From the NCBI GenBank assembly GCA_002104905.1, contig MCFE01000622.1:1-51964 (forward strand): 51,964 nucleotides of DNA, read 5' to 3'. Positions within the stretch are counted from its first letter, which is position 1; each line of letters opens with the position of its first letter. A program made the position numbers and the translations under genes. This document shows positions 649-20,534 of the stretch, in pieces. The stretch comes from Basidiobolus meristosporus CBS 931.73 (lineage: Eukaryota; Basidiobolomycota; Basidiobolomycetes; Basidiobolales; Basidiobolaceae). The notes under the pieces were generated by a model, which was not told the origin of the DNA, ran no database searches, and was given only the letters and a program-made list of their open reading frames with translations.

Positions 649-1815
649 ATGGCGGTTGTTTACGAACTGAACAACACAGTATTTTTAGTGTTGTGTGGAC
701 TTTCTGGATTCTGCAGCATAATACTCGGTTCCTCTCTTGCAGGAACTTTGGATATTAGGGATGTGGACCATCCTGAAAATACTCACAATAGTAACATCAA
801 AATGGATATGATATTACCATTATCTGTAATGCGACACTTCATCACACAGCTTATTGGGATCGAGTTGATCAAAACCAACAAAAAGTCTTTGAAAACGGTG
901 GTTCAGTCTGTCTTCGAGGGAAGCGCTTACTTGGTGAATCCCCTGGTGCAAAATAGCAATATAGGAATATCAGTTAGCGCCGAGAAATATGAAAGTAAAC
1001 CGAATCCATCCAAGAAACTTGAGTTGTCGCTAATAGATCACCCGGATATACGCATGGCAGTGGAATCTGGATGTCTAACAAGAGTGAAGGAAAAAGACGT
1101 ACCTTTGCTGATGCGCAGAGATCTAGCGGTGTATCGTATATCAGGGAACAGATTTATCTCTTACCTGGGAAGTATAACCGCACTGTGTGTGACCTCCCTG
1201 TGGATTCATTGCATCTATGTAGTTACTCGAAACTTGCAGAATCATAATGGCACACCTGGAGCTAAGAGGATCATGGTTCTAACGATTCCGTTGCTTTTTA
1301 TCCCACTACTCTGTAGAACATCATTATATAAGGGTCCTGTAATTGTCCATGTCGAGGATGATGATGGTTGTTCCAAAAGCATAAATTTCACTGAGTCAAA
1401 AATCCGTGGCAATGAATCCGATGAGAGGAACACAAGAGACGGCTCTGACGTAGGCGATTTGATTTATCAGAAGATGCTCATCCGTTATAGGATTCAGCGA
1501 ATCGTGGGCTCACTGTTCTTTATGCTGCTATTTTATGCAGTATACTTTGCGATATCTGCAATAGCTTCTATGGATACTGATACCGATTCGACAGATCAGA
1601 ATTCGTACTGGTATATATTTGGTTATTATGTTATAACTTTCACCAAACTCTGCAGACTTGCGGAACCAATGGTCCATTGTCTTTTGTGCTACATTTCGCT
1701 AGGTAAAGTCGTTTTTCATCAGCGAAAACCATTGCAAGTACTCTCGATGTGTGAGAAAATCTTAACAGTGATATATTATGTAGTTACCCCTTCGGCAAAT
1801 TTTAGCGCAGTGTAG
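649..1815 (+). CDS. Subtelomeric multi-pass membrane protein family, member A
   Basis: Single-exon gene of 388 residues; function unknown. An N-terminal hydrophobic segment (~8-32) is followed by a soluble stretch with the family motif RHFITQLIG (~62-70), a 'SKKLELS' block (~121-127) and 'VYRISGN' (161-167), then hydrophobic segments at ~170-193, ~210-222, ~290-312 and two or three more to the C-terminus, including CRLAEPMVHCLLCY. The start is fixed by the TATA box 46 bp upstream and by alignment with the other copies. Closest paralogue by eye is the gene at 11163, which shares 'HPEN' after TM1 and a very similar upstream region. A downstream AATAAA-like signal follows at ~1819. I know no named family with these motifs; a membrane location is inferred from hydrophobicity only. 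Confidence 0.85.
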   Translation: MAVVYELNNTVFLVLCGLSGFCSIILGSSLAGTLDIRDVDHPENTHNSNIKMDMILPLSVMRHFITQLIGIELIKTNKKSLKTVVQSVFEGSAYLVNPLVQNSNIGISVSAEKYESKPNPSKKLELSLIDHPDIRMAVESGCLTRVKEKDVPLLMRRDLAVYRISGNRFISYLGSITALCVTSLWIHCIYVVTRNLQNHNGTPGAKRIMVLTIPLLFIPLLCRTSLYKGPVIVHVEDDDGCSKSINFTESKIRGNESDERNTRDGSDVGDLIYQKMLIRYRIQRIVGSLFFMLLFYAVYFAISAIASMDTDTDSTDQNSYWYIFGYYVITFTKLCRLAEPMVHCLLCYISLGKVVFHQRKPLQVLSMCEKILTVIYYVVTPSANFSAV

Positions 1816-1845
1816 GAAATAAAAGGCAATTTCTGTATACTTCAG

Positions 1846-2146
1846 ATGTATACACCACGCTCATATTTGTCACAGTCAAAGCTGGTGATAATCCAGTAAA
1901 TGAAGACCAAGTTCCAAAACCCAGGCAGGAAGTTTTATCTGCATTTGTTACCGGCCTGGGTGGGTAGATAGAATTATCTGCTACGGTGACTATGCAGAGC
2001 CAGCAGTACATTGTCTAGAATGTCTGTTCCGACTGTGCATGGCGACTTTCTCCAATAGTCGTATCTTGAAAGCACTTTCGTATTGCGAAAATGGCTTGCA
2101 TTATATAGATCTCCTTCTATTACCTATGGCATTCTTTACCTTTTGA
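1846..2146 (+). pseudogene. Family C-terminal remnant
   Basis: Translation gives SDVYTTLIFVTVKAGDNP, matching the family's 'SVYKGPVFVTV' segment. After a stop and a gap it resumes in frame as YGDYAEPAVHCLECLF and continues to LLLLPMAFFTF followed by TGA. This aligns with the family C-terminal 'RLAEPMVHC...LSICEKIL...LPIANF' block. The N-terminal two thirds are missing and the join is internally deleted. It lies just 30 bp behind the intact copy at 649. Confidence 0.75.
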
Positions 2147-2734
2147 AAAAGCATCAGCATTAAATATAAGACCTGTAGATCTATGTTGCCGCGATGGTAC
2201 CTTCGGGAACCCTAATGATCATTAAAGGCTTCGATTGCGATCTACCATCATTAATATCGCATCACTCTCGTACATATCAATACCACGAATGTTGAAAAAC
2301 ATGCCCTAATAATGAGCCACAAGTTCGTTTTATTTGCATCATATTGTTTCATTCATTAATATAGTAAAGGGCTTCAGAAAATAGCATACAAAGGTTTCTC
2401 TTCTACAATAACGATGCCACGAATGGAAATGGATTGTACTTGAGTAAATTCATAAAATCGGTGAACTAACATCAACGCTCCACTCAAACAATGTGACCAG
2501 TATACTATGATGGTCACAAACACTTTCAGGAGTATTCATGTATATATATATGGTTGCACGCAATGGTGTGGTAATACTAGCTATATGGTATGTTTGAAGT
2601 GGACTATATAATAGCTTATTTCAGCACACTGTCTGTGATGTATCTGGACAAGTATGATGCAACGTATATCGTGGTAGTGGTTAAGAGGCCAAAATCGTTC
2701 GGTAATCCTATTCTTTCGACTGTTCAAAATATAA
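2147..2734. other. Gene-free spacer
   Basis: AT-rich DNA between the remnant at 1846-2146 and the spacer repeat. It contains a short (TA)n run near 2540. I see no family relic, RNA gene or convincing open reading frame here. Confidence 0.5.
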
Positions 2735-2895
2735 ACATGGCTATAAATCATTACCGCAACGTCATCAACTAATATCCTGCATTCCGTGAAGTATTTGTGT
2801 ATCTTTCTCCGGGTACCCAGGTGATGTACGCAACAACGTTTTCAGCGTGACCACAATAAAAAAGGGCTGTCAGATAGACAACCCAAGTTATCCAA
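2735..2895. repeat. Spacer direct repeat, right copy
   Basis: Second copy of the block at 1-165, same orientation. It lies about 0.4 kb upstream of the member at 3304; the left copy lies about 0.5 kb upstream of the member at 649. This fits a duplicated 'spacer plus gene' unit. Confidence 0.85.
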
Positions 2896-3104
2896 TATAA
2901 GGCTTTATAATTTCTGGCCTTCCTATTGAATGATCCTGTGATTTCCAGAATACTTAGCTGGCCAATACATCCTACACGTATGAATATTGTTGTGTAAGGC
3001 GGATCGGTATGGTAAAATATGAGTATCATTATTCATGTGCTATCCGCCTGGCTCTGATAAGTCTATGGGCTGTCCACATGGTACTGGTAAATCCTAACAA
3101 TATA

Positions 3105-3187
3105 TCAATACCACACTTCGCGGGGTAGAAGTTTATCCATCAACGAATGTTCGATAGCATACAAATCTAAGAATGAATGGATAAAAC
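3105..3187 (+). promoter_or_regulatory. Family upstream element of the 3304 gene
   Basis: Variant of the shared block: TCAATACCAC, then GTAGAAGTTTATCCATC, GTTCGATAGCAT, AAATCTAAGAATG and GGATAAAA. A TATAAG box lies at 3254-3259, 45 bp before the ATG at 3304, the same spacing as at the 649 and 19401 members. Confidence 0.65.
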
Positions 3188-3303
3188 AGTTTCCGATTCG
3201 AACAGGCACATGATATGTTATTCAATTTACAGATAAATCCATTTGATTACGAGTATAAGAGCTCTCACATACTCTGGCATTTACGATACAACCTGATTTA
3301 ATT

Positions 3304-4422
3304 ATGCTTGACTACGTTTTGAAAGACACCACATTAAAAGTACTGTTTTCGCTTTCTTCGTCCTCATCCTTGATACTCCTACTCTTTTTTGGGGCGAAAC
3401 GCATTGTTTTCGAAGCAAGTTATGGTAAAAAAAGCGCCACTGGCGACTATGAGAGGGCTATAACATTCCCATTATTTGCGGTTCGATACTACATCACACA
3501 GTTGGTGGGAATTAAGTTGGTCAAAACTGATCAAAAATCGGTGAAAATGGTGATTCAGTCCGTCTTCTCAGGAAATGCCTTCTTGGTGAATCCTCGCCCC
3601 CAAAATCGCACAAGTACTGCAGTTGCCATTAAGAAGCTTGAGTTGTCACTGCTGGATCAACCGACCACTCGCATAAAACCAGAATACAGATCCTTGATCA
3701 GGGTAAAGGAAGAAGACGTACCCTTGCTACTGCAAAGTGATCTATCGGTGTATCGCATACCCAAAAACAAGATTGTTTCTTACTTTGGAGGTATAGGCGC
3801 CCTGTGCGTGATATCCCTGTGGATATATAACCTTTATATAATTATACGAAGCCTGAAAAGCCTTGGCTACATACCCGGAGCTAATGCGAACACAAACCTA
3901 ATGTGGCCGACCATGTTCATTCCTCTTCTATGGAATACCTCAGTATATAAGGGCCCGGTGTTTGTCGCAGTTAATAGCTGTCCCAAGAATTTGGATTTCA
4001 TTGAGCCACAAGCCCATAGCAACGGATCCAATGTAAGGTGCACCACAGAAAGCACAGACATAAGCATTTCGACTCAAAAAATACTCGTTCGTTATAGAAT
4101 CCAGCGACTCTTGGGCTCGCTACTTTATATGATCTTGTATTATGCAGTATACTTTGTAATAGCCGTATTAGCTACTATGGACACTATCATCGATACTGCA
4201 GATGAGAACCCACACCTTACTATGTTTGTTAACGGTTGTCTCGTTTTTCTCAGTTTCTGTAGACTTGCGGAGCCGATGGTACATTGCATTTTAAGCATCA
4301 TTTTATTAGGTCAAGTGGTCATTCATCACCAAAAACTATTACTAGTTCTCTCGATATGTGAGAAGATCTTATCAACGATCTATATTTTCGTTTTGCCTAT
4401 TGCAAATTTTGCCGTGGTATAA
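3304..4422 (+). CDS. Subtelomeric multi-pass membrane protein family, member B
   Basis: Single-exon gene of 372 residues, function unknown. I use it as the layout reference. TM1 is ~11-30. A soluble segment of ~39-157 contains RYYITQLVG (61-69), KTDQKS (74-79), IQSVFSGNAFLVNP (84-97), KKLELSLLDQP (110-120) and RVKEEDVPLLL (133-143). TM2 is ~158-182. SLGYIPGA (186-193) is followed by a semi-hydrophobic stretch at 199-214 and YKGPVF (215-220). RIQRLLGSLLYM (265-276) opens TM4 (~267-291). RLAEPMVHC (320-328) lies inside the hydrophobic stretch 306-338. The last segment is ~346-370. That predicts five to seven membrane crossings. The ATG is supported by TATAAG 45 bp upstream. Confidence 0.85.
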   Translation: MLDYVLKDTTLKVLFSLSSSSSLILLLFFGAKRIVFEASYGKKSATGDYERAITFPLFAVRYYITQLVGIKLVKTDQKSVKMVIQSVFSGNAFLVNPRPQNRTSTAVAIKKLELSLLDQPTTRIKPEYRSLIRVKEEDVPLLLQSDLSVYRIPKNKIVSYFGGIGALCVISLWIYNLYIIIRSLKSLGYIPGANANTNLMWPTMFIPLLWNTSVYKGPVFVAVNSCPKNLDFIEPQAHSNGSNVRCTTESTDISISTQKILVRYRIQRLLGSLLYMILYYAVYFVIAVLATMDTIIDTADENPHLTMFVNGCLVFLSFCRLAEPMVHCILSIILLGQVVIHHQKLLLVLSICEKILSTIYIFVLPIANFAVV

Positions 4423-4749
4423 TATAATAAATGGTCTCAAAAACCGGTAAATAAAGTTTGGACTCTTACTATACAAGAATATAAGGGATATATACAACTC
4501 AATTTGAATACGTACACCTATTAGCACATGCAGTCACTCGATCATGTTAAGATCCATTTCCAGAAATCCGGAATCTCGGAAACCCATAAACCAACGCCCA
4601 CATGGTTCGAATATCTCACCTAATTAATTCTTTTACGCAGGGAAAGTTATCCAATACTAGCAAGATAAAAGAAAACGTGACTTTGGCGTATGCACGGACT
4701 GTCCGAATGACTGTGTTTAGTCTCAATGATTGAGAGATAAATTATTGGC

Positions 4750-4885
4750 CACCAAGGAATATTCGATACCCTTTAATCTAAAAATGTACGAATAAAGTTA
4801 TGCTGTTCTTTTGGAGGTGAAGGTGAACCTGCAAGGAATATTCGATACCTACACACAAGAATGCACAGAAAAAATTGGTTCGATT
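4750..4885 (+). promoter_or_regulatory. Two tandem upstream elements before a dead copy
   Basis: GGAATATTCGATACC occurs at ~4755 and GGAATATTCGATACCTAC at ~4835, each followed by degenerate 'aATGtACgaATAAA' or 'AATGCACAGAAAAAATTGGTTCGA' tails. The element is duplicated here, ahead of the pseudogene that becomes recognisable at ~4921. Confidence 0.55.
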
Positions 4886-4920
4886 TCAAAACACACGGCA
4901 TATGATTAATGGATGCTATA

Positions 4921-5873
4921 GCTGTGTTGGGGGTTTTATTCATTTCGCGGTATATGTGAGATCAGTTTAGACCAATATCGAGCTATTGCCTTTCCATTGT
5001 TTGCAGTCTGACTTCTTGTCACAGAGTTTGTGGGGATTGAGTCAATCAAAACCGGTCAAGAATGTACGAAAATGGCGATTCAGTCTGTCTTCGAGGGAAA
5101 TGCATTCTTTGTTGATCCTCGTACGCAAAGCGACATGACAAGCATTAAAAATGGCGCTGGGAAAGATCAAAGCAAACCAAACCCATCGAAGAAACTTTTT
5201 AGTATCAATTGATGAACCGAATGCTCGCATAACAACAGAATATGAATATCTGACAAAGGTGAATGAAGAAGGTATCTATCTGCTACTACAAAGTAATTTA
5301 TTGGTGTATCGTATAACTGAAAACAAGACTATATCCTACGTGAGCAGTATTGGTGTTCTCTGTATGACGTTCTTCTGGATGTATAGTATTTATGTAATTA
5401 CATGAAGCCCGATGAACGTTGGTTACATAAGTGGAGCTAAAAAGATCAGTATAAGGACATTAATCACTGTGAATGCAGATGATTGTCCTATTAGTATATA
5501 ATATATAGAATCATCCAATGTAAACAAGAAAATATGGAATTCCAACACCGATAATTTGACTCAAAAAGAAGCTCTCATTCATGTTCTCGGCTCATTGTTC
5601 TATATGATCTTGTTCTATTCAGCATACTGTAGATATGCAGTATTGGTTGTTCCTGAGGTCAATGCAGAATCCACAGAACAGAAAATGATCGGTTTCCCAG
5701 CGTTTTTTCGGTACAGTGCATGTCTAGAGCCAGCGACGTATAGCATTCGATGTTTGATCTCCTTGAGTCAAGCAAAATTCAGTCGACCTCAATTATCGCT
5801 TTGGCGTGAGTTTGTTATTTCACTCATACATGCCATTCTCATACCCGCGACAAATTTACTTCCGTCGTTGTGA
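4921..5873 (+). pseudogene. Broken family member
   Basis: Family homology starts around 4965 (YRAIAFPLFAV, then a TGA in place of the usual Arg). It continues with FVGIESIKTGQE and IQSVFEGNAFFVDP, frameshifts near 5195 into SIDEPNARITTEYEYLTKVN and LVYRITENK, hits a stop at 5403 after the TM2 region, loses most of the KGP loop, and resumes at 5556 with LIHVLGSLFYMILFYSAY to a natural-looking stop at 5873. TM1 is unrecognisable. At least two in-frame stops, one frameshift and one deletion make expression of a full protein implausible. Confidence 0.85.
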
Positions 5874-5997
5874 AAGAACGTGTTGCCAAGCAAATTAATT
5901 ATAGAGAACCCAATCACTAACTCAACGCTACGATCTAGTGATCGGAGAGTGAATAAAGAGCGATGAAAAGCTTTGAAATGAGTGACCCGTTTCTCGT

Positions 5998-6141
5998 ACG
6001 GGGCTGTTGGTGCATTGCATATTACTAGGTCAAGCATTTTTTCGACACCAAAAACTGTTGCATCTTCTCTCAATTTGTGAGAAAATTTTAACAGGGGTTC
6101 ATCGAATTGTTTACCCTCTTGCAAATGCAACCGCACTATAA
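5998..6141 (+). pseudogene. Family C-terminal fragment
   Basis: In frame this reads LLVHCILLGQAFFRHQKLL, HLLSICEKILTGVHRIVYPL and ANATAL, then TAA. It is a clean copy of the family's last ~45 codons without upstream gene. It lies 125 bp behind the pseudogene at 4921-5873, so two C-termini sit in tandem, which implies an unequal exchange or an internal deletion of a neighbouring copy. Confidence 0.8.
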
Positions 6142-6203
6142 AGCATTAATGGACTTCAAGTATTAGAATACACAGTTCTTAAAAACGTTATATATATATA
6201 CTG

Positions 6204-6252
6204 ATTTTGTGCCACTGTAGCTTGTTTCTGTGTATTCCAAGAGTTGGCACCA
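6204..6252 (+). repeat. Conserved 3' flank, copy 1
   Basis: TTTGTGCCACTGTAGCTTGT and TCCAAGAGTTGGCACCAC closely match the sequence at about 12386-12434. Both lie 60-70 bp after a family stop codon (6141 and 12317), so it is probably a shared 3' UTR or terminator region. Confidence 0.6.
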
Positions 6253-6588
6253 CTACGTATACAATGTTCTGACTTCACTCTTGTACAGGAATGTGTAACC
6301 GTGAAGTTGATAGCTTAGCACCCAACTTACGCGATTAGCATATATAGAAGTGCTATACACAAGGTTGTATTTAGCACTTTATCATGATCTGCCAAGACGT
6401 AATAAGATTTTCAATTCTTGAAGTGCATACACTCTGCTGTACGAATACTCCCATATGAAATAGAACAATAAATGCTTTGAATACAAATTTGACAGAGGCT
6501 GAGAAGCCAATACTATGTAAGGTAATGACTGCGACATTTTCCCTGATTGTGTATTTCAATACAACTAGCCCAAGAATCTAAGTCTAAA

Positions 6589-6985: not shown

Positions 6986-7033
6986 CCTTTCACATGCCTG
7001 CTCCTGACTTTGAACTTCAAGCCTGCAGTTAAT

Positions 7034-8188
7034 ATGTTTGACTCGGAGTTAAGTGAATATGTGCTTTTGGTGCTTTTTTGCCTTGTTGCTTTCTTTAGCT
7101 TGATGCTTCACTTTAACCTCATAGTGAAAAAAATCGTTTTCAATAGAAACCGGCGGGAGAAACCAACCTGCAGGGATTATGATCTAGCAGTTGGATTTCC
7201 GATATGTGCACTTCGACACTACATCACACAGCTTGTGAATATCGAGCTGATCCCAACTAACCAAAAAGTCCTGAAAGAAGTTATTCGATCTGCCATAGAG
7301 GGTAGTGCTTACTGGGTTAATCATCCCGAACGAGATAATGCTGCAAATGCCTCAAGTAGCACCGAGAATACCGACATTGAATCAAAATCATCCAAGCTGG
7401 TCCTATCGCCAGTAGATCAGCCAGACATTCGCATATCCACAGAATATGGACCTCTGATCAAGGTGAAGGATGAAGACATACACTTGCTATTGGAAAACGA
7501 GATATCGATATCACATGTACCAGAATCGAAGCTGCTTTCTTACCTGAAGAAATTGGGTTTTTGGTGTGCACTACTCTACTGGGTGTATGTAATTCACGAG
7601 ATTTTCCAGAGCTGGCTGAGCCTCGGCTACGTAACCGATGGTCAGATCCTCACAAATCTAACGAATCCATTCTTCCTTATTCCGCTTCTGCACAACACCT
7701 CGGTGTATAAGCCGATGCTATTTATCACCGTAGAAACTGGTGATTTTCCTCCAAGCATGGCTTTTGCTAAACTGGATGCACGAGATGAAAAATCCAATAC
7801 TTGTGATGCAAGCAATACACCGGAAATTCCTGGTTCAAGCAAATCAATGCAGAGGGAAGCCCTTATCCGATATAGCATTCAGCGAATTTTGGGATCCATA
7901 CTGTACATGATCCTATATTACCCACTATATTTTGGATTGGCTGCATTGACTACTTCGAGAGCCGATACTGCCTTTAGCCAAGTGGAATTGACCTACCTAA
8001 TATTCATCAGGTACTGTCTACTTGCAGAACCGATTGTGCCTTGCATCCGTAGCTTAGTTACATTAGGGCAAGTAACGTTTTATCATCCAAATGTATTACG
8101 ACTACTCTCATGGTGTGAATTTATCTTAATGCATGTACATGCCATTCTTTTACCTATTTCATCTATACTATGGATTTTCTTAATTTGA
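7034..8188 (+). CDS. Subtelomeric multi-pass membrane protein family, member C
   Basis: Single-exon gene of 384 residues, function unknown. The frame is open from 7010, but I choose the ATG at 7034 because MFDSELSEYV aligns with the N-terminus of the other copies (MFDYRLDDTAF) and because the TATA box at 6979 is then at the usual distance. It has RHYITQLVN (an Asn where Gly is usual), ELIPTNQK in place of KTDQK, SPVDQPDIRI, KDEDIHLLL, SVYKPM instead of YKGP, and the C-terminal LAEPIVPCIR (Pro where most have His). It is the most diverged intact plus-strand copy, so it is an older lineage within the array. Membrane location is inferred. Confidence 0.85.
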   Translation: MFDSELSEYVLLVLFCLVAFFSLMLHFNLIVKKIVFNRNRREKPTCRDYDLAVGFPICALRHYITQLVNIELIPTNQKVLKEVIRSAIEGSAYWVNHPERDNAANASSSTENTDIESKSSKLVLSPVDQPDIRISTEYGPLIKVKDEDIHLLLENEISISHVPESKLLSYLKKLGFWCALLYWVYVIHEIFQSWLSLGYVTDGQILTNLTNPFFLIPLLHNTSVYKPMLFITVETGDFPPSMAFAKLDARDEKSNTCDASNTPEIPGSSKSMQREALIRYSIQRILGSILYMILYYPLYFGLAALTTSRADTAFSQVELTYLIFIRYCLLAEPIVPCIRSLVTLGQVTFYHPNVLRLLSWCEFILMHVHAILLPISSILWIFLI

Positions 8189-8873: not shown

Positions 8874-8959
8874 ATTGTGCTTAAATGGGGTTGTAAATAC
8901 TTTAATACTACTTCTTACTTGGTATCTCGCAAAAAGAAGATACCATATAAACTGTATTT

Positions 8960-9070
8960 GAAGATGACACACCAAAATCATCCAAGAAACTTGAAATGTC
9001 GCCGATAGATATGTCGAACGCTTGCATCATGAAAAAAATCGATATTTGACAAAGATGAAAGTTGGCACAT
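8960..9070 (+). pseudogene. Family middle-domain fragment
   Basis: In frame: PKSSKKLEMSPIDMSNACIM, then, in a shifted frame, RYLTKMKVG. This equals the family's 'SKKLELSPIDQPDIRI...RYLTKMKEE' block. About 35 codons remain. It is separated from the remnant at 8501-8873 by only ~90 bp, and the two fragments are in reversed N-to-C order relative to an intact gene, so they come from different copies. Confidence 0.65.
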
Positions 9071-9436: not shown

Positions 9437-10595
9437 ATGTTCGACTATCGTCTGGACGACACTGCATTTGGAGTGTTGCTTCTACTCTCAGGATCCACTA
9501 GCCTGCCTCTCTTCTTCTTCCTTCTAGTGAAACGCAAAATATTCAACAACGATGAATTCATCTCCCATGTCAATTGCTTTTGCTATTCAATTTCCAGTAC
9601 TTGGAGTGCGGCATTTCATCACACAGCTTGTGGGAATTGATTTGGTCAAAACTGACCAGAAAATCAGGGGAATGGTGGTTCAGTCCGTCTTCGATGGCAA
9701 TGCCTACTTGATTGATCCTCAGGCGCTAAATAGCAGCACAGACATTGCAGATGGCACTGAGGAAGTCAAAGGTGAACCAAAAGCATCCAAGAAGCTTGTC
9801 TTATCAGCGGTTGATCAATCTGCAACTGGCATGACCATAAACTCGAGATATTTGACGAGGATGAAAGAAGAAGATGTACCCCTGATACTAAGCAGTAATC
9901 TATCGGTGTATCGCATACCAGAATCCAAGGTTATCACCTACTTGGGAAGTATAGGCTCGCTGTGCGTAGCTTCTCTGTGGATATATAGCATTTGTGCAGC
10001 TAAACGAAGCCTGCAAAGCCTTGGTTACATACCTGGAGCTAGCATGATCGAGTTTCTAATGTGCCCGGTGCTCTATTATCCATTTCTGTGTAAAAACTCA
10101 TTATACAAGGGTCCCGTTTTTATCAATGTGAAAGTTGGCAATTATCCCTCCAGAAGGGATTACTTAGAGCCTGACACAAATAGTAATGGACCCGGTGTGT
10201 GGAAGTCATAAGTAAGTGCTGACGTTCTCGATTTAACTCATCAGAAGTTGCTCCTCCGCTATAGGGTTCAATGAGTTGTAGGCTCGCCCGTCTATATGTT
10301 ACTATATTATCCAGTATACTTTGCAATAGCCGCACTAGCTACTATGGATACTGGCACTGTTCCTATAGCTTGTGGACCGTTATTATCCAAGTTCAATTAT
10401 TGGTTTAATGCTTATATCACATTCTCTAGACTTGCGGAGCCGGTAGTGCATTGCCTTGTATGTTTCATACTATTAGGTCAAGTAGTCAATCGTCATCCCA
10501 AGCCGTTGAAAGTACTCTCGATATTTGAGAATATCCTCACTGTGATATATGTTTTGGCTTTAGCTGCTTCAAATATTTTAGCTATAAGACATTAA
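9437..10595 (+). pseudogene. Nearly intact but broken family member
   Basis: It starts MFDYRLDDTAFGVLLLLS at 9437. A frameshift between ~9545 and ~9590 separates TM1 and 'DEFISHVN' from 'AIQFPVLGVRHFITQLVG'. The rest stays in a single frame to 10595, but has two nonsense codons: TAA at ~10209 (after GVWKS) and TGA at ~10273 (where paralogues have CGA for Arg in RIQR). The stretch ~9580-9998 is nearly identical to the gene at 15611-16771. The C-terminal fifth is clearly less similar. If read-through and frameshift were corrected the length would match the family; as it stands it is a recent pseudogene. Confidence 0.85.
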
Positions 10596-10766
10596 AGTGT
10601 CTCAAAACAATATGTTGACAGCGATAAGTCTCACAATCACAACAATTAGAATTCTTCATTTTCTATGCAGTGGTTGACTATTTCATATATCTGATGTATG
10701 GCAATATTATGACGTCATAATATTACATCATCTATGTTAACAAATATGATCAGTGCGTGTTTGGAA

Positions 10767-10853
10767 TGGCAATCAGTGCATGTGTACTTTCATGCCTATT
10801 CTGTTCACAGTCAGTCACTGGCATCACATATGAGATCTATGAAATATCTCGAT
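10767..10853 (+). other. Spacer block that reads like a signal peptide, copy 2
   Basis: Reads MAISACVLSCLFCSQSVTGI and ends after 29 codons (stop at ~10851). Paired with 6589-6660. I do not claim it is expressed; it is listed because both copies keep the same start and hydrophobic run. Confidence 0.25.
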
Positions 10854-10939
10854 AAATTATGATTCAGGCAGTTCACTCTACAATCCAGGGAGCGCTTACT
10901 TCGTTATATGACGAATATTCAACTAGACTAGGGCTCTCG

Positions 10940-11012
10940 GTAATGCGCCACAGAGATAAAAGTTTAACCATCGCATGATATTCGATATGATCCAAATCTA
11001 GGAATGTACCAA
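10940..11012 (+). promoter_or_regulatory. Family upstream element of the 11163 gene
   Basis: GATAAAAGTTTAACCATCG, ATATTCGATATGATCC, AAATCTAGGAATGTACC. Almost the same as the block at 421-478. I find no clear TATA box between it and the ATG, unlike most other members. Confidence 0.65.
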
Positions 11013-11162
11013 CAAATTTGCTCTCGACCTGAACAGCCACGGCTAATGATAATCATAGTTCATCTCTATTAAATATGCTTCAATAGTGTTCAGCGAACTC
11101 CTGCTGAAACCACTACATAGTGTACCTCTGAAAATCTTGCTTCTACGTTTTTACATAACTCA

Positions 11163-12317
11163 ATGATGAGTGACTATAGACTGGACAACACTGCATTTAA
11201 TGTGTTATATGGCATTTCTATATTCTCCAGTGCAATACTCAAAATAACTTGGGATAGTCGCAGTGTAAATCATCCTGAAAATTACCTCAATAGCGACTAC
11301 GAAATGGCTATGGTATTTCCATTATACGCCATCCGTCACTATATCACGCAGCTTGTGGGCACTGAGTTGGTCGATATTGATCAAAAATCATTGAAAACGG
11401 TGATTCAGTCTGTCTTCGAGGGACGTGCTTACTTGATTACTCCTATAGTGCAGAGTAGTAAAATAGGCACCGCAGAAGGCACTGAGAAGGTTGAAAGTGA
11501 ACGAAACCAGTCCAAGAAGCTTGAGCTATCACTTTTAGATCACCCGGATACTCGCATGACAGCAGAATACAAATCTTTGATGAAGGTGAAGAAAGAAGAC
11601 ATACCCTGGCTACTGCAATGTGATCTATCGGTGTATCGTATGCGAAAAATCAAGATTATCTCCTACTTTGAAAGTGTAGGTGCACTCTGTGTGACATCCC
11701 TGTGGATCCATAGCTTATATGTAGTTGCACAAAGCTTGCAGAATCAGATTGGCTTACCTGGAGCTATGAAGATCACACGTCTAATGATTCCGTTGCTTTT
11801 TATTCCACTCCTATGTAAAACCTCATTATCGAAGGGCCCCGTATATATCACAGCGAAAGTTGATGGTTCCCTCAAAGGCAAAGGTTTCATTGAGTCAAAC
11901 ATTCGTGGCAATGGAATCAATGCGCAGAAGGCAGCAGATAGTTCCGAAATAGGTGAATTAACTCCTCAGAAAATACTCATCTGCTATAGGATTCAACGAC
12001 TCTTGGGCTCACTACTCTATATGATTTTGTACTACGCAGTGTACTTCGTAATAGTCACATTAGCTACTCTTGATACCGACCCTGACTCTACAGACCTGCT
12101 TATGTATATTTTTAGGCTTTCTTATTGTCTTGTATTTATCAGCAAATCCTGCATTCTTGCGGAGCCAATGGTTCATTTCCTTTTGTGCTCTACTTTGCTC
12201 GCCAAAGTAGTTTTTCATCAGCAAAAACTATTGCAAGTACTCTCGATATGTGAGCTGATACTAACAAGGATACATCTTATTATTCTTCCTTTTGTAAATG
12301 CTACTGTACCGATATAG
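11163..12317 (+). CDS. Subtelomeric multi-pass membrane protein family, member D
   Basis: Single-exon gene of 384 residues, function unknown. Two adjacent ATGs (11163 and 11166) both fit; MSDYRLDNTAF aligns to the family start. Features in order: a short TM1, SRSVNHPEN, RHYITQLVGTELV, IQSVFEGRAYLITP, SKKLELSLLDHPD, KKEDIPWLLQ, VYRMRKIK, TM2, SLSKGPVY (Ser where most have Tyr), ICYRIQRLLGSLLYM, and ILAEPMVHFLLC. It is paired with the member at 649 by sequence and by promoter region. A conserved 3' block (12386-12434) follows ~70 bp after the stop. Confidence 0.85.
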   Translation: MMSDYRLDNTAFNVLYGISIFSSAILKITWDSRSVNHPENYLNSDYEMAMVFPLYAIRHYITQLVGTELVDIDQKSLKTVIQSVFEGRAYLITPIVQSSKIGTAEGTEKVESERNQSKKLELSLLDHPDTRMTAEYKSLMKVKKEDIPWLLQCDLSVYRMRKIKIISYFESVGALCVTSLWIHSLYVVAQSLQNQIGLPGAMKITRLMIPLLFIPLLCKTSLSKGPVYITAKVDGSLKGKGFIESNIRGNGINAQKAADSSEIGELTPQKILICYRIQRLLGSLLYMILYYAVYFVIVTLATLDTDPDSTDLLMYIFRLSYCLVFISKSCILAEPMVHFLLCSTLLAKVVFHQQKLLQVLSICELILTRIHLIILPFVNATVPI

Positions 12318-13368: not shown

Positions 13369-13657
13369 ATGCAAGAATATGAAGAGCTAGACTATGATTT
13401 TTACGGCACTATATTTGCAGTGTTACTCGGACTTTCCTTGTCTTTGAGTCTAATATTCTTGAACAAACTTTTCAAGAGACCCGATGCTTTCAAAATACTA
13501 AATTATCGTCTAATAATAAGAATAATAATCCTGATAAGCGAGTCGCTTTCACACAGAGCAATCTCTCTCTTGCTATGGCATATTCATTAGCCGGAGTCCG
13601 ACACTATATCACGCAGCTTGTAGGAATCGACTTGGCCAAAACTGACAACAAATCTTT
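13369..13657 (+). pseudogene. Truncated N-terminal family fragment
   Basis: Starts MQEYEELDYDFYGTIFAVLL, aligning with the family N-terminus and TM1. It frameshifts before ~13560 into LAYSLAGVRHYITQLVG and GIDLAKTDNKSLL. Homology stops abruptly at ~13657, where minus-strand family sequence begins. About 95 codons remain. Confidence 0.8.
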
Positions 13658-13905
13658 ATTGAGTCAGATCTCCACCGGTAGGACTTGCTTTTGACTTCCT
13701 CGTATTGACTCCATTACTATAGGTGTCAGACTCAATTTAATCCGTGCTGGAGACATAATCATCTCCTTCCACAGCGACAAACACAGGGCCCTTATATAAG
13801 AAGGTTTTACATAACAGAGGGGGAAAGATAAGCGTGTTCATTAGAAACATGATCCCATTTGCTCCATTTGCTCCAGGTATGTAGTCTTAGTACTGACAAG
13901 CCTTT
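13657..13905 (-). pseudogene. Inverted middle fragment of a family member
   Basis: On the minus strand it reads DYIPGANGANGIM, LLCKTFLYKGPVFVAVEGDD, SSTD, a stop, IESDTYSNGVNTRKSKA and GDLTQ. These are the family's 'LGYIPGA...LLCKTSLYKGPVFV...' loop and the following region. It directly abuts the plus-strand fragment ending at 13657, so this is a rearrangement junction inside two family copies. Confidence 0.8.
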
Positions 13906-14053
13906 TATTAGTTGCACATACAACATGCTGAAATTCCCTACAAGTCCATATCAACATCCATGTGGGCCACGGCGCATTTCTAATAGATTTGAATTTAACA
14001 GATGGGATATGGTAGATGATGAGCAAGATGATATGTATATATATATATATATT

Positions 14054-14100
<47 letters not shown>

Positions 14101-14275
14101 CATAATGAAAATGAGAGAATACAGCCATTGCTAAACTTGGCAAATCCTAATCCATTTTCTCGTTATGCTTGTCACCTATCCACCAGGACCATGTCATGCA
14201 GAAAGAATAATTATGCATCAATTTCAGAAGCAAATAGCCAAGCGAGAGCATCATCGATGCCCTCCAACGACGAAT
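13906..14275 (+). repeat. Inverted repeat, left arm
   Basis: About 370 bp matching the reverse complement of ~17178-17515. Shared landmarks are TGCACATACAACATGCTGAA, CATCCATGTGGGC, GATGAGCAAGATGATATG, the TG microsatellite, CATTTTCTCGTTATGCTTGT and CCACCAGGACCATGTCATG. The arms bracket the two minus-strand family genes. The inner part of this arm is also the last ~40 codons of the gene at 14147-15280. Confidence 0.85.
14036..14097 (+). repeat. (TA)n(TG)n microsatellite
   Basis: A run of alternating TA, TTTA, then about 21 TG units. The equivalent position in the right arm (17347-17368 on the plus strand as CA) has about 11 units, so the tract has changed length since duplication. Confidence 0.95.
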
Positions 14276-15280
14276 TATTTCTTCATCTGAGGCAATGTAG
14301 CAAAGAATACAATACAGAACTGGTTCTGCAAGCAAACAGTACCAGTAAAATACCCCCAAACGAGTCGTTTGCTGCCATTTAGCTAGGGAACTTAATCCAA
14401 AGTATGCTAGATAAAATGGAATCATGTAGAGGAACGAACCCAGGAATCGTTGAATCCTATACCAAGTGAGCACCTTCTTTGGGTTTGGAACGTCTACCCC
14501 AGGGTGTTCTTTTGACCGAATCTCATTAAACATGAACTCTTCGTCCGGCTTAACTGAAGATTTACTCAAGCAAGGATCATCACCAGTTTTCAGAGTAATA
14601 AACACGGGCCCCTTGTATATGGAATTGTTATAGAAAAACGGAATAAACAACGCCGGACGCATTAGATCTATAGCATCCCGACATTCAGGTATGCAACCCA
14701 AGCTCATAAAGCCATGAACTATTACATAAGCTTCAAACAACCAGTAGGAAAGTACGCACAGACAGCCCAACTTCGAGAGATAATACAAGACTTTTGAATC
14801 GGGCAGATAATATACGGATATATCATTCTCTAGCAGCACGGGTATGTCTGCTTCCTTCACTTTTGTCAAATATGTATAATCTGTTGTTACGCGAATGCCT
14901 GGCTGATCGATTGGCGACAATTCAAGCATGTTGGATAGTCGAGATTTGGAATCTTCAATCACAATTTTTCCCGTATCGCTTTCTTGAGTGAGAGCACCAA
15001 CCCAGTAGGCAGTACCGTCGAGGGCTGAGCGAAGAATCACATCCATGGATCTTTGGTCTGCTTTGGTCAACTTACTACTCATGAGCTGTGTAATATACCT
15101 TCGGACTACGGTCGCTGGATTTAGGGTAACTAGATCAATGCATTCTCTAAACGTGTAATACCGTGTAGTGGCGATATTAAACCTGACAACAGGACTGCAA
15201 AGCCACAAAAAGTACGAAATAAAGATGGCAGAAGATCTTAACACAGTATTTGTAGTGCCGTTCAGTTGTAATTCAATCAT
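14147..15280 (-). CDS. Subtelomeric multi-pass membrane protein family, member E (inverted)
   Basis: Single-exon gene of 377 residues if started at 15280. The frame is open from 15331, but MIELQLNGTTNTVL is the part that aligns with other family starts, and TATATAAGG at 15320-15328 lies 40 bp before 15280. Motifs: RRYITQLMS, LRSALDGTAYWVG, ELSPIDQPGIRVT, KEADIPVLLEND, VYYLPDSK, SLGCIPE, NNSIYKGPVF, YRIQRFLGSFLYM, LLAEPVLYC. The last 25 residues (SFCMTWSWWIGDKHNEKMD end) are unlike the usual LPIANF-type terminus and lie inside the inverted repeat; the fragment at 17173-17295 encodes the same tail, so the tail is a subfamily trait. I see no clear upstream element. Confidence 0.8.
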   Translation of the reverse strand: MIELQLNGTTNTVLRSSAIFISYFLWLCSPVVRFNIATTRYYTFRECIDLVTLNPATVVRRYITQLMSSKLTKADQRSMDVILRSALDGTAYWVGALTQESDTGKIVIEDSKSRLSNMLELSPIDQPGIRVTTDYTYLTKVKEADIPVLLENDISVYYLPDSKVLYYLSKLGCLCVLSYWLFEAYVIVHGFMSLGCIPECRDAIDLMRPALFIPFFYNNSIYKGPVFITLKTGDDPCLSKSSVKPDEEFMFNEIRSKEHPGVDVPNPKKVLTWYRIQRFLGSFLYMIPFYLAYFGLSSLAKWQQTTRLGVFYWYCLLAEPVLYCILCYIASDEEIIRRWRASMMLSLGYLLLKLMHNYSFCMTWSWWIGDKHNEKMD

Positions 15281-15610
15281 TAGTAAGGACTGATGTCCAA
15301 CAAACTGCCATGAAGTCGGCCTTATATACATCGATTTCCTACCACCTGTTACATTTCCGTGTCTGGATTTGGATATAGGTGAGCCACACGATTAACCCAT
15401 TTCCATCCACCCATTCCTGAGTCTCAACTGAAAAAACATTCCCTGATAGTCGAAATCTCACATATCCAATTACGCAATTCGTGAGCCTTACCGCTGCCAA
15501 TGTATTACTACAGGCTTTACGAATTTATACTCATATCTGAGTGGAGCGGCGAATATTGTTATTGCAACGGACCACACTCTGTACGCCAATTTTTGAGACA
15601 CTTTAATGTC

Positions 15611-16771
15611 TTATATAAATAAAGCATTTGTAATAGACAAAACAAAACAGTATATCGGAGTGAGGGTATTCTCAAATATCGAGAGTACTTTCAACAGCTT
15701 GGGATGACGAATGACTACTTGACCTAATAGTATGAAACATGCAAGGCAATGCATTACTGGCTCCGCAAGTTTACAGAATGCGATACTAGCATTAAACCAA
15801 TAAATAAACTTAGATAATCGCGGCCCCAGAGCTATAGGAACAGTGTCAGTATCCATAGTAGCTAGTGCGGCTATTGCAAAGTATACTGCATAATACAATA
15901 ACATATAGATGAGTGAGCCTACAACTCGTTGAATCCTATAGCGGAAGAGTAACTTCTGGTGAGTTGAATTGATAATATCAGAGCTTGATTTTGCCTTCCA
16001 CACATCGAGTCCATTGCTCTTGATATCAGACCCGATGTAATCCTTACTGAATGGGCCATCATCACCTTTCACATCGACAAACACAGGGCCCTTGCATAAT
16101 GAGGTTTTACACAGAAGGGGGATAAACAACCCTGGTAATATTACGTGTCTGATAAGTTTAGCACCAGGTATGTATCCAAGGCTCCTCAGGCTTTGTGTAG
16201 CTGCACAAATGCTATATATCCACAGAGAAGCTACGCACAGTGAGCCTATACTTCCCAAGTAGGTGATAACCTTGGATTCTGGTATGCGATACACCGATAG
16301 ATTACTGCTTAGTATCAGGGGTACATCTTCTTCTTTCATCCTCGTCAAATATCTCGAGTTTATGGTCACGCCAGTTGCAGATTGATCAACCGCTGATAAG
16401 ACAAGCTTCTTGGATGCTTTTGGTTCACCTTTGACTTCCTCAGTGCCATCTGCAATGTCTGTGCTGCTATTTAGCGCCTGAGGATCAATCAAGTAGGCAT
16501 TGCCATCGAAGACGGACTGAACCACCATTCCCCTGATTTTCTGGTCAGTTTTGACCAAATCAAATCCCACAAGCTGTGTGATGAAATGCCGCACTCCAAG
16601 TACTGGAAATTGAATAGCTGAACGGTAATTGATATGGGAGATAATTTGACGCTCATCTATCTTGAAACTTGCACGTTTCAATACAAGAAAGTAGATGATC
16701 AACAGGTTGAGACATAGTGGGAGTAGAAGTAACACTCCAAATGTAGTTTCATCCAGACCGTAGCTCATCAT
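15611..16771 (-). CDS. Subtelomeric multi-pass membrane protein family, member F (inverted)
   Basis: Single-exon gene of 386 residues, function unknown. MM start at 16771 (second ATG at 16768), then SYGLDETTFGVLLLL as TM1. Motifs in order: RHFITQLVGFDLVKTDQK, VQSVFDGNAYLIDP, SKKLVLSAVDQ, KEEDVPLILSSN, VYRIPESK, TM2, SLGYIPGAK, SLCKGPVFVDVKGDD, RYRIQRVVGSLIYML, KLAEPVMHCLAC, LSIFEN. TATAAAAG lies at 16813-16820 on this strand and the shared upstream element at ~16840-16925. About 400 bp of its middle is nearly identical to the pseudogene at 9437, and part of it to the pseudogene at 18383, so it appears to be the functional donor or sibling of both. Confidence 0.85.
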   Translation of the reverse strand: MMSYGLDETTFGVLLLLPLCLNLLIIYFLVLKRASFKIDERQIISHINYRSAIQFPVLGVRHFITQLVGFDLVKTDQKIRGMVVQSVFDGNAYLIDPQALNSSTDIADGTEEVKGEPKASKKLVLSAVDQSATGVTINSRYLTRMKEEDVPLILSSNLSVYRIPESKVITYLGSIGSLCVASLWIYSICAATQSLRSLGYIPGAKLIRHVILPGLFIPLLCKTSLCKGPVFVDVKGDDGPFSKDYIGSDIKSNGLDVWKAKSSSDIINSTHQKLLFRYRIQRVVGSLIYMLLYYAVYFAIAALATMDTDTVPIALGPRLSKFIYWFNASIAFCKLAEPVMHCLACFILLGQVVIRHPKLLKVLSIFENTLTPIYCFVLSITNALFI

Positions 16772-16812
16772 GATAAGAGTTGGAGTTCAATACAAAAGCA
16801 ATTGTGTGGGTG

Positions 16813-16925
16813 CTTTTATATTCAGATTCCATTATCCGTAACTGCTGAAATCGAATACGATTTTTTCCGTGGATGCTTTGATTTGGATGATTTCGAATAT
16901 ACTACAATGGGTAAACATTTACTTC
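16813..16925 (-). promoter_or_regulatory. TATA box and upstream element of member F
   Basis: Reading the minus strand: CCATATTCCAGGGAAGTAAA, TTTACCCATTGTAGTATATTCG, AAATCATCCAAATC, AAAGCATCCACGGAAAAAAT, then TATTCGATTTCAGC and TATAAAAG. It is the same module as at the plus-strand genes, in inverted orientation, so gene and promoter inverted together. Confidence 0.65.
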
Positions 16926-16949
16926 CCTGGAATATGGCGATATCCACAT

Positions 16950-17012
16950 TTCAAGGTGGTGATTGTTGATGATGCTATATCAATGTTTTCCGCAAAATGC
17001 AGGACAACTTAT
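16950..17012 (+). repeat. Spacer inverted repeat (partner 17998-18060)
   Basis: GGTGATTGTTGATGATGCTA through GTTTTCCGCAAAATGCAGGA matches the reverse complement of 17998-18060. A third, weaker copy lies at ~17085-17130 (TTTTTTGCGAAATATAGAAC). No coding content recognised. Confidence 0.6.
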
Positions 17013-17172
17013 AAGGGGACCCAGATATTGTTGAGCTCACTATCAAGTGTGCGGTTTATGATGACATTCAAATAGCAACTTGGCGTCATAACAATATTTT
17101 TTGCGAAATATAGAACAATACAGGGGGATTTTGTAGAAAGCCCATAAATTGCTTAACTCGATATTGAGTGTG

Positions 17173-17295
17173 TGTTGGAGGACATCAATGATGCACTCGC
17201 TTGGCTATGTGTTTCTGAAATTGATACATAATTCTACTTTCTTCATGACATGGTCCTGGTGGATAGGTGACAAGCATAACGAGAAAATGGATTAG
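17173..17295 (+). pseudogene. Solitary C-terminal fragment of the member-E subfamily
   Basis: Reads CWRTSMMHSLGYVFLKLIHN, STFFMTWSWWIGDKHNEKMD, stop. It matches the end of the gene at 14147-15280 nearly residue for residue. No upstream gene body is present; it is the coding edge of the right inverted-repeat arm. Confidence 0.85.
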
Positions 17296-17515
17296 GATTT
17301 GCCAAGTTTAGCAATGGCTGTATTCTCTCATTTTCATTATGATTTACACACACACACACACACACACATAAATATATATACATATACATATCATCTTGCT
17401 CATCATCTACCATATCCCATCCGTTAAATTCAAATCTATTAGAAATGCGCTTTAGCCCACATGGATGTTGATATGGACTTGTAGGGTATTTCAGCATGTT
17501 GTATGTGCAGCTAAT
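17178..17515 (-). repeat. Inverted repeat, right arm
   Basis: Reverse-complement partner of 13906-14275 (see there). Its CA tract is shorter. Between the arms lie both minus-strand family genes and the promoter of member F, so the arms delimit a ~3 kb segment that is inverted relative to the rest of the array. Confidence 0.85.
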
Positions 17516-17997
17516 AAACAGCCTACCAGTGTTGTGTTGCGAGTAGTAGGATGTTAACTTTCAAAATAACACAACGGCCTTAACTAAGGAATGTATCCTG
17601 TTTGCAGCATGATATAGCTCGCCTTTACACGTCACAATCGAATTGAAGCTGAATAGCGTAGCAGGTTTTTTTTGCCATAGTTTTCTACGACCACTTACAT
17701 TGTGCTATAGTTTAGAGGCTTTTGAAACTTGCAATACCAATGATGTGGTCAACTTAACCCAAACGGGATGTGCATCCGATGCAATGATCAGTAAGCTATG
17801 GGTTCGCAATTGTTCATTATCTGAAGGGATATAGCATACTTGAGACAAGCCACATTGGCTACATTAGAGGTTGATGCCGAATCCACAAATTAGAATAGAT
17901 AGATAACCTCACCTTGATTGTATTATACTCTATGGAAGTTGTTACGATGTATAATATACATTCACTTGTTAACCGCTCAACTCCTGAACTCTCTTTT
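17516..17997. other. Gene-free spacer
   Basis: AT-rich spacer after the right inverted-repeat arm. I recognise no family fragment or other gene. Sequence homologous to the 5' flank of the 9437 copy begins at ~18120. Confidence 0.45.
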
Positions 17998-18156
17998 AAA
18001 TTGTTCTGCATTTTGGAGAATATATTATTGTAGCATCATCGACAATCACCATTTTGCCATGTGAACATGGCTGTGTTAGACAAATCAATATAGCAGATTG
18101 CGAAAATAGAGTTCGTTGGTCCACCGCATGACTTTGGTAAGCTTCGTGAACTGCTC

Positions 18157-18318
18157 AATCAATGCCACATTCCAGGGAGGTAAACATTCAACCTTTGAAG
18201 AACATCCGATATCATCCAAATCTAAGAATCCACGGTTAATATTGTATTCGCCTTGAACGGGTATGGAACGCTTGCCAGCTGGTGTGTAGGTGCTTAACTA
18301 AATTTCATATAAATCCCC
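18157..18318 (+). promoter_or_regulatory. Upstream element and TATA box of the 18383 pseudogene
   Basis: TCAATGCCACATTCCAGGGA, GGTAAACATTCAACC, AACATCCGATATCATCC, AAATCTAAGAATCC, then TATAAAT at ~18308. Nearly identical to 9215-9373. The promoter is intact although the gene is dead. Confidence 0.7.
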
Positions 18319-18382
18319 TGGAATTGAACTAGCAAAGCCCTCAAATAACCACTTTCGTAGTTAACTCCAGCCTTACGTGATT

Positions 18383-18995
18383 ATGTTCGACTATCGTCTG
18401 GACGACACTGCATTTGGAGTGTTGTTTCTACTCTCAGGATCCATTAGCAAAAGCATCCAAGAAGCTTGTCTTATCAGCGGTTGATCAATCTGCAACTGGC
18501 ATGACCATAAACTCGAGATATTTGACGAGGATGAAAGAAGATGTACCCCTGATACTAAGCAGTAATCTATCGGTGTATCGCATACCAGAATCCAAGGTTA
18601 TCACCTACTTGGGAAGTATAGGCTCACTGTGCGTAGCTTCTCTGTGGATATATAGCATTTGTGCAGCTACGCAAAGCCTGAGGAGCCTTGGATACATACC
18701 TGGAACTAGCATGATCGAGTTTCAAAAGGGCCCGGTGCTCTATTATCCATTTCTGTGAAAAACCTCATTATACAAGGGCACCATTTTTGTCAATGTGAAA
18801 GTTGGTAATTATTCCCCCAGAAGGGATTACTTTGAGCCTGACACGATATTCGAGAACATCCTCATACTGATGCATGCTATATTTTTACCTGCTACAAATA
18901 TGATTATGACAAGCCATCAAGATGCTTCAAAAATTGGCTTACAAAGTGTGGTCTGTTGTGTTGCAATCGCAATATTCGCAGTTCCACTTAGATAG
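18383..18995 (+). pseudogene. Mosaic, internally deleted family pseudogene
   Basis: Starts MFDYRLDDTAFGVLFLLSGS, then jumps out of frame at ~18445 directly to KASKKLVLSAVDQSATG, deleting ~115 codons. It continues through VYRIPESKVITYLGS and SLRSLGYIPG to YPFL, a stop at 18756 (TGT to TGA), then VNVKVGNY and DYFEPDT. A second deletion joins it to IFENILILMHAIFLPATN, followed by an unrelated tail to 18995. The middle matches member F at some variant positions and the 9437 copy at others. Confidence 0.85.
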
Positions 18996-19228
18996 GAGTG
19001 TATTGATCTAATCTCCATATAGTAGATATAGAGAGAATTGATGATACTTGTGACTTCGGAACTTCTCACGTCTGAGAGTTCGCCTGGATACTCATTTAAT
19101 AATCGGTCAAGCTTATTTGTAAAAGGTTACATTATGCTACTCCAGTTATATATCAGTAGTATTCATGGATATGAATATGGGGTTATAAGGATTATCCAAG
19201 TGGTCCTGGTAGGATCCAACAAAAGATC

Positions 19229-19354
19229 TATCAATGCCGTTTTTAGAACGGTAAAGGTATAGCCGTCAAAGAACATCCGATACCATCCTTTAACGATGAT
19301 ATATAGAATCAGCAAGCACGCCATATGATTGCTGTGCTAAGGATAGGATATAAA
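19229..19354 (+). promoter_or_regulatory. Upstream element and TATA box of the 19401 gene
   Basis: TCAATGCCGTTTTTAGAACG, GTAAAGGTATAGCCGTC, AACATCCGATACCATCC, then TATAAA at 19349-19354, 47 bp before the ATG at 19401. The A+T tail after the core is diverged. Confidence 0.6.
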
Positions 19355-19400
19355 CCACTCATACGCCATTCTTGTGTACCATTTCCAGCACTTATTCATT

Positions 19401-20534
19401 ATGGTCGACCTGGGGCTAAATGGAACTGCATTTGCAGCGCATTCTATTCTTGTTTTGCTCTTAACCTCGATACTTCACGCCATCCATTTAGACAAACGTA
19501 TTGTGATGGCAATGACATATTTATCCAGCCGGCCTATGGATTCTACCATTAGCGACTACGCTCTAGCTATTCGGTATCCATTATGTGCAGTCCGATACTA
19601 CATCACCCAACTAGTGGATATTGATCTGATTAAAACCAGCCGGAAGCCCTTGAAAATAGTGATGCAGTCTATTTTTGAGGGTAGTGCTATCTGGGTTAAC
19701 CCCCTCGCACTTCGTGGCATAAAAAGTGTTGCAAGTAGTCATGAGATAGACGATCGTGAGCCAAAATTTTACAAGAAGCGTACCCTCTCGCTGATAGTTC
19801 GACCAGATAATCGCATAACAATAAAACACGGACCATGGGAGCAGGTAAATGCCGGATCCGTATCTTTACTAGTGGAAAGCAAGCTGTCAGCGAGTCATAT
19901 GCTGGAAACGAAGCTCACCTATTACCTGAGACGTATAGGTTGTCTGTGTGTTACTTCATACCTGATACATGGCATCTATGCAATTATTCAAAGCTTAAGG
20001 AACTTTGGCTATATACCTGGGGCTCACAAGATCATGGGTTTGATATCGCCGTTTCTTTTTGTTCCTTTTCTATGCAATACATCAGTATTCCAGGCCCCTG
20101 TTCTCGTTACGGTGGAAGTCGATGACTGCTCCGTGCACAATCAGGGTCAAGGATCCAATTCAAGCAAGACAGAAGAAAGCTCCAAAATGGATAGCTCAAC
20201 TCAACGGGCGATGCTCATCCGCTATAGGATCCAACAACTCGTGGGCTCGCTACTCTTCATGTCCCTGTACTATGCAGTATTCTCGCTAACCTTATCATTA
20301 TCTGCTATGGATAATGATTCTGACGCAATAAGTCATGTACTTTACTATTATTTAATGCTTGGCAGATTCAGTAAGATTGCGGAGCCAATGGTCCACTGCT
20401 TTTTATGCTTCATTTTATTAGGACAAGCAGTCTTACATCAAGGACAACTATTACAAGTACTCTCAATGTGTAAGTATGTCCTAATAAGGATACATACTAT
20501 TGTTTTGTTCGGGGCATACTTTGCCCTTCTTTAA
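19401..20534 (+). CDS. Subtelomeric multi-pass membrane protein family, member G
   Basis: Single-exon gene of 377 residues, function unknown, last of the array. The frame is open from 19374, but the first ATG is 19401 (MVDLGLNGTAFAAHSILVLL), which aligns with other starts and sits 47 bp after TATAAA. Motifs: RYYITQLVDIDLIKTSRK, MQSIFEGSAIWVNP, KKRTLSLIVRPDNRI, SHMLETKLTYYLR, SLRNFGYIPGAHK, NTSVFQAPVLVTVEVDDC (QAP in place of KGP), IRYRIQQLVGSLLFM, KIAEPMVHCFLCF, LSMCKYVL. It is diverged and seems not to have taken part in the recent exchange among the 9.4, 16 and 18 kb copies. Confidence 0.85.
   Translation: MVDLGLNGTAFAAHSILVLLLTSILHAIHLDKRIVMAMTYLSSRPMDSTISDYALAIRYPLCAVRYYITQLVDIDLIKTSRKPLKIVMQSIFEGSAIWVNPLALRGIKSVASSHEIDDREPKFYKKRTLSLIVRPDNRITIKHGPWEQVNAGSVSLLVESKLSASHMLETKLTYYLRRIGCLCVTSYLIHGIYAIIQSLRNFGYIPGAHKIMGLISPFLFVPFLCNTSVFQAPVLVTVEVDDCSVHNQGQGSNSSKTEESSKMDSSTQRAMLIRYRIQQLVGSLLFMSLYYAVFSLTLSLSAMDNDSDAISHVLYYYLMLGRFSKIAEPMVHCFLCFILLGQAVLHQGQLLQVLSMCKYVLIRIHTIVLFGAYFALL

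Follow-up and report, generated by a model that had tools for sequence, protein, structure and literature searches.

A family of multi-pass membrane protein genes in a subtelomeric array of Basidiobolus meristosporus

The wtf spore killers of fission yeast produce a poison and an antidote from one gene and cause meiotic drive. Insect odorant and gustatory receptors belong to a seven-transmembrane ion-channel superfamily whose proteins, according to the sections of PMC7746228 used here, have about 350–500 residues, seven membrane segments, an intracellular N-terminus and intracellular loops longer than the extracellular ones. The same sections give the chytrid GRLs as its only fungal members and describe a motif of transmembrane segment 7 (TM7), (T/S)Yhhhhh(Q/K/E)(F/L/M), as diagnostic but not definitive. 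In Pneumocystis jirovecii, subtelomeric surface multigene families comprise numerous gene copies together with pseudogenes close to the chromosome ends (PMC5676039, in the part used here). Here we describe a gene array that likewise combines many copies and pseudogenes near a chromosome end, at positions 649–20534 of contig MCFE01000622.1 (51,964 nt) of Basidiobolus meristosporus CBS 931.73; the entire contig was analyzed and is referred to below as the window. The array encodes an apparently undescribed family of membrane proteins, known in two Basidiobolus species, whose copies are under relaxed purifying selection and which we tentatively read as sensor or transport-type proteins, the most likely of the explanations considered. 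To our knowledge, the Pneumocystis surface proteins are unrelated to this family; the Basidiobolus array gave no sign of switching or exclusive expression.

The genus Basidiobolus diverged early among the fungi and has human opportunists among its species, and B. meristosporus is a non-flagellated gut fungus that passes through vertebrate guts. The PacBio-sequenced genome (PMC7466969, used in part) is assembled into 1311 contigs totaling 89.0 Mb, with the window as contig C894. The words 'transmembrane' and 'telomer' do not occur in the part of that paper available to us, and among the results listed in our searches of open-licence papers there was no description of the family.

Intact and broken copies in the window

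The window contains seven intact, intronless, full-length open reading frames (ORFs) of 372–388 aa, counted from their likely starts. On the plus strand these are W1 (649–1815, 388 aa), W2 (3304–4422, 372 aa), W3 (7034–8188, 384 aa, with its ATG at 7034), W5 (11163–12317, 384 aa) and W8 (19401–20534, 377 aa); W6 (14147–15280, 377 aa) and W7 (15611–16771, 386 aa) are on the minus strand. For W3, W6 and W8, the ORFs begin farther upstream than the likely starts, which lie at 7034, 15280 (minus strand) and 19401, respectively. The GTG start of W8 and the upstream ATG of the W6 ORF, which itself begins at 15331, are probably unused, and the W6 TATA box falls inside the extra 5′ part of the longer ORF, upstream of 15280. 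The seven ORFs, and the motifs that they share, agree with the initial annotation, made from the sequence, which had pointed to seven intact intronless genes with a set of named motifs.

A profile built from the seven window proteins was run against stop-to-stop frames, taken both from the window and from stretches of the other loci. The window ORFs scored 526–617 bits, high by construction, and seven intact paralogues elsewhere, which were outside the profile, scored 106–194 bits (one of them split in two by the ends of the searched stretches). In a reversed-sequence control, the best score was 9.3 bits and no match was better than E 0.1.

Eight broken copies were detected in the window by profile search and tblastn, fewer than the eleven or more counted initially. 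C-terminal pieces lie at 1961–2143 (tblastn E 1.5e-5; profile E 2.1e-9) and 6007–6138, pieces in two frames with stops at 4961–5861, and an N-terminal piece at 13410–13724, all on the plus strand; a middle piece is found at 13743–13868 on the minus strand. All five of these were recovered by both tblastn and the profile. Copy W4 (9437–10592, plus strand) consists of pieces in different frames and is 86% identical in DNA to W7, in inverted orientation, and a plus-strand copy with an internal deletion (18383–18920) is 94% identical to W4 over 400 bases. Weakest among the broken copies is 17173–17292 (plus strand; profile E 0.014), the 3′ end of a W6-like gene (79% to W6, E 6.6e-16), which lies inside a 90% identical inverted DNA duplicate of 13904–14268. 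Two further weak pieces, 8957–9031 (E 0.024) and 17747–17962 (tblastn E 0.002, no profile match), were left out of the count.

Recent duplications are both tandem and inverted, with 9450–10607 matching 16758–15591 (86% DNA identity), 9778–10177 matching 18448–18844 (94%) and 13904–14268 matching 17518–17174 in inverted orientation (90%). The family grows by tandem and inverted duplication and loses copies by frameshift and deletion. The arrangement expected of birth and death, intact and broken copies side by side in an array, is seen in the window (seven and eight, respectively) and likewise in a second array on contig C412. Outside the family ORFs, positions 1–197 and 2732–2928, upstream of W1 and W2, are 86% identical, another mark left by unit duplication. 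Gene conversion among W1, W2, W5 and W7 was considered and is not claimed, the shifts of nearest partner being small.

Relatives and chromosomal setting

Genome-wide searches with family proteins each gave the same 14 intact intronless genes, distributed over two arrays and two single loci. The seven outside the window comprise five on C412, of which one is on the minus strand, one on C381 and one on C397; C412 has additional broken pieces at 116.4–117.9 kb, and another, short piece close to 121.4 kb. A match on C558 (E 0.04) was dropped, as no family-like ORF of at least 150 aa was seen there.

Protein searches covered 5.8 billion proteins from sources including NCBI nr and EukProt at E up to 10; two of them scored only about 8000 candidates sharing most words. 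Nine distinct proteins were returned, all from Basidiobolus: W7 itself, five named B. meristosporus proteins and three B. ranarum proteins (K7432_011300, K7432_001187 and K7432_005796). No relative outside the genus was among the hits of these word-based searches of limited reach. One search missed the B. ranarum relatives found by another, so that absence elsewhere is weak evidence. The lineage specificity proposed in the initial annotation thus fits every returned hit and is to be read within that reach, as is the failure of a known single-copy family or an orthologue in distant fungi, either of which would have contradicted it, to appear. Likewise, that B. ranarum lacks the window clade is at best a weak suggestion, since such searches do not establish an absence.

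K493DRAFT_315229, K493DRAFT_21050, K493DRAFT_314992 and K493DRAFT_301710 each match one of the 14 intact genes letter for letter, and these four are the only correct public gene models in the searches made; for nine of the 14, no model of any kind was returned. Another model, K493DRAFT_307493 (671 aa; window 9552–12317), joins broken W4, by way of supposed introns, to the initial part of intact W5. In a tree of 17 proteins, the window seven split from the other ten, B. ranarum included (100/100). Two B. ranarum proteins group with the C381 and C397 proteins (100/100), and the third falls with the C412b–e group (89/89). The four correctly modeled proteins and the three from B. ranarum, all hypothetical, belong to the same family as the window genes but to the other clade, are 20–25% identical to window genes, and are unnamed save for a single 'Odorant receptor' label. 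A virus or prokaryote origin was set aside, as no relative of the B. ranarum protein P0008 was found in viral or prokaryote contigs, in a search with that one protein that reaches close relatives only.

No Pfam family exceeded the cut-off with window sequences or other members, NCBIfam gave no match better than E 0.013, and neither sequence searches of the PDB nor Foldseek searches with predicted models gave a match at E 0.001. The initial annotation, which knew of no named family with these motifs, is supported on this point by the profile search against Pfam that it had proposed as a check.

A telomere repeat, (TTAGGG)n, occupies 51721–51960 (plus strand) at the right end of the window contig. 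The array therefore sits 31–51 kb from the chromosome end, its right edge being 31 kb from the repeat, which sharpens the original placement on a chromosome arm to a subtelomeric one. On C397, a telomere lies about 7 kb from the family copy, so that two of the four loci are clearly subtelomeric. The expectation that relatives would lie in subtelomeric arrays holds for the window array and, as a single copy, for C397; the C381 copy is about 148 kb from a telomere, at the opposite end of a telomere-bearing contig, and on C412 no telomere was seen in the contig-end stretches read.

Ordinary genes separate the array from the telomere: a protein kinase, a beta-lactamase-like gene, an asparagine synthase, an enoyl-CoA hydratase/isomerase and a bZIP gene. 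A trypsin-like serine protease exon (23289–23738; Pfam Trypsin, E 5.6e-14) lies close to the array's right edge. Diverged copies of the kinase and beta-lactamase-like genes (window 26213–34000) are present at C480:141084–142102 and C480:175615–177008 (74% and 67% DNA identity), about 34 kb from each other, perhaps reflecting an old segmental duplication. At these identities they are too diverged for an allele, and C480 was rejected as a homologous contig without the array. Over the whole genome, a 35-base telomere pattern matched 6759 times on the plus strand and 68 times on the minus strand; telomere arrays are nearly all in one orientation, as though contigs had been oriented by them. Near the other family loci, the stretches examined (C412:130001–137095, C412:100001–110000 and C397:132001–142000) contain an M13 metallopeptidase gene accompanied by a second ORF of the same start, as well as ORFs for subtilases and for copia-type reverse transcriptase (RVT_2).

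Protein architecture and comparison with known membrane proteins

Hydropathy peaks number 4–7 per protein over 14 proteins and 4–6 per window protein. Two AlphaFold2 models, computed from 14-row alignments with one or the other clade first, suggest six membrane segments, possibly seven. Six is our best estimate; it falls within the five to seven initially predicted, although the peaks of the window proteins extend below that range. Despite the different clade placed first, both models agree on how the elements are arranged: after helix 1 come short helices around FPxxxVRxYITQ, a helix and a strand, and a low-confidence linker, followed by a strand-helix-strand unit, a long helix, a short helix, the PVFV strand and three long helices.

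Lys and Arg are denser in loops 1 and 3 (0.134 and 0.121) than in the predicted outer parts (0.022–0.055), suggesting that loops 1 and 3 are cytosolic. Charges favor an N-terminus on the outer side in 12 of the 13 rows retained; four of the 17 rows were dropped (W6, together with C397, P0008 and P0009, in which another segment was taken as first). If this topology is right, the cytosolic loops average 135 and 50 residues and the outer loops 17 and 17. In both clades, identity is lower in the predicted outer loops TM2–3 and TM4–5 than over the long cytosolic loop 1.

Because UniRef labels B. ranarum K7432_005796 'Odorant receptor', we compared the family with the insect receptor superfamily by the features listed in PMC7746228 (companion paper PMC9998090; both used in part). 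On this reading, the family would be a fungal chemoreceptor repertoire at the cell surface, multiplied in a fungus without flagella; its members might be ligand-gated channels, either akin to insect odorant and gustatory receptors or similar to them by convergence. Some features are indeed common to the superfamily, its GRLs and our family: the proteins are helix-rich and multi-pass, all 17 are 358–388 aa from their likely starts, and their loops, if the predicted topology is right, are long on the cytosolic and short on the outer side. However, the TM7 motif is present in none of the 17 proteins, the best agreement being three of four positions in two of them, and the N-terminus is predicted outside. 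GRL, 7tm_6, 7tm_7 and DUF3537 were not listed by Pfam for eight window sequences and four proteins at E up to 10, nor in a scan of 14 members with the limit at E 1; in such scans, HMMER filters drop most matches above 0.1. Orco was not among the structure matches to the two modest-confidence models. Lacking a profile match and the TM7 motif, the family is not assigned to the superfamily, and we regard a chemoreceptor repertoire of this kind as improbable.

A membrane enzyme that modifies lipids or glycans, present in lineage-specific copies, ranks next after the sensor or transport explanation, though we think it unlikely. It would account for polar residues that do not vary although they lie in the membrane or close to it: all 16 aligned proteins keep the R and G found in the RxYITQ...G region, as well as the E of AEPxxH. 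On the other hand, just seven columns are invariant among these proteins, with that R and E as the only charged residues, and no Pfam or NCBIfam enzyme family matched above the cut-off.

Selection, promoters and the likely role of the family

The ratio of nonsynonymous to synonymous substitution rates (dN/dS) was computable in 27 of 42 within-clade pairs, with W6 entered from its longer ORF start. It is 0.37–0.75 in all 21 pairs of the window clade, at synonymous distances of 0.64–1.67, and 0.23–0.37 in the six computable pairs of 21 in the second clade, the remainder being saturated. Fewer nonsynonymous than synonymous changes per site were found in each of seven tested pairs (P at most 3.1e-4). 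The copies are under purifying selection, which is relaxed. The by-segment analysis suggested in the initial annotation gave 0.20–0.82 over 13 segments of the window clade; with no segment above 1, the description of the family as fast-evolving, if taken to mean diversifying selection, is not supported. By predicted part, dN/dS is 0.67 (0.44–0.93) in outer loops, 0.48 (0.40–0.58) in cytosolic loops and 0.43 (0.32–0.56) in membrane parts, which is suggestive of higher values outside, with overlapping ranges. TATAWA occurs at −75 to −40, the core-promoter distance, in nine of the 14 intact genes and five of the seven in the window, as compared with 0.61 expected from shuffling (maximum 4 in 2000 shuffles).

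These data bear on whether the array reflects neutral birth and death near a telomere, with mostly decaying copies of little function. Broken copies do outnumber intact ones in the window, dN/dS is higher in the window clade than in the computable pairs of the other, and most intact genes lack a public model in the searches made. Yet seven full-length frames have been kept over considerable synonymous distances, constraint is significant in every tested pair, and most window genes have a TATA box, so we consider neutral decay rather improbable. Selfish poison-antidote genes like wtf, to which an array of multi-pass proteins with fast turnover close to a chromosome end might point, are more improbable than any other explanation considered here: relatives in two species are under purifying selection, and neither an alternative start nor a gene with two products came to light, although no search was aimed at these.

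We return to a sensor or transport-type function. The family would consist of proteins crossing the plasma membrane or an internal membrane about six times, so far only in Basidiobolus. After the first membrane helix, a cytosolic α/β module of about 130 residues would carry the FPxxxVRxYITQ and GxAYWVN motifs, and the GPVFV strand, the RYRIQR-LGS helix and the AEPxxH helix would form a constant membrane core. By this model, copies would differ in the short loops that face outward and in their first and last helices. In the simplest mechanism, the outer side would vary while the core and the cytosolic module couple to a common partner. Support comes from the occurrence of one family in two clades and two species, from constraint, from both AlphaFold2 models, from the pattern of loop identity and from the TATAWA and Lys/Arg distributions.

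Several observations weigh against this reading. Model confidence is modest (mean pLDDT 64 and 70, pTM 0.62 and 0.70), and the segment count is unsure, as the second hydrophobic stretch scores higher than the first in C397 and in two of the B. ranarum proteins. In loop 3, acidic residues outnumber basic ones, and in the window clade this loop varies as much as an outer loop does (identity 0.31). The predicted outer loops show no higher density of glycosylation sequons, the dN/dS ranges of outer and cytosolic loops overlap as noted, and synonymous sites are close to saturation. Finally, of 84 further 35-base stretches from the regions upstream of these genes, 10 also contain TATAWA.

As the evidence stands, this is one more lineage-restricted family turning over near chromosome ends, a familiar pattern. 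If a surface or sensory role is true, the family would represent a lineage-specific interface of Basidiobolus with the gut or the host.

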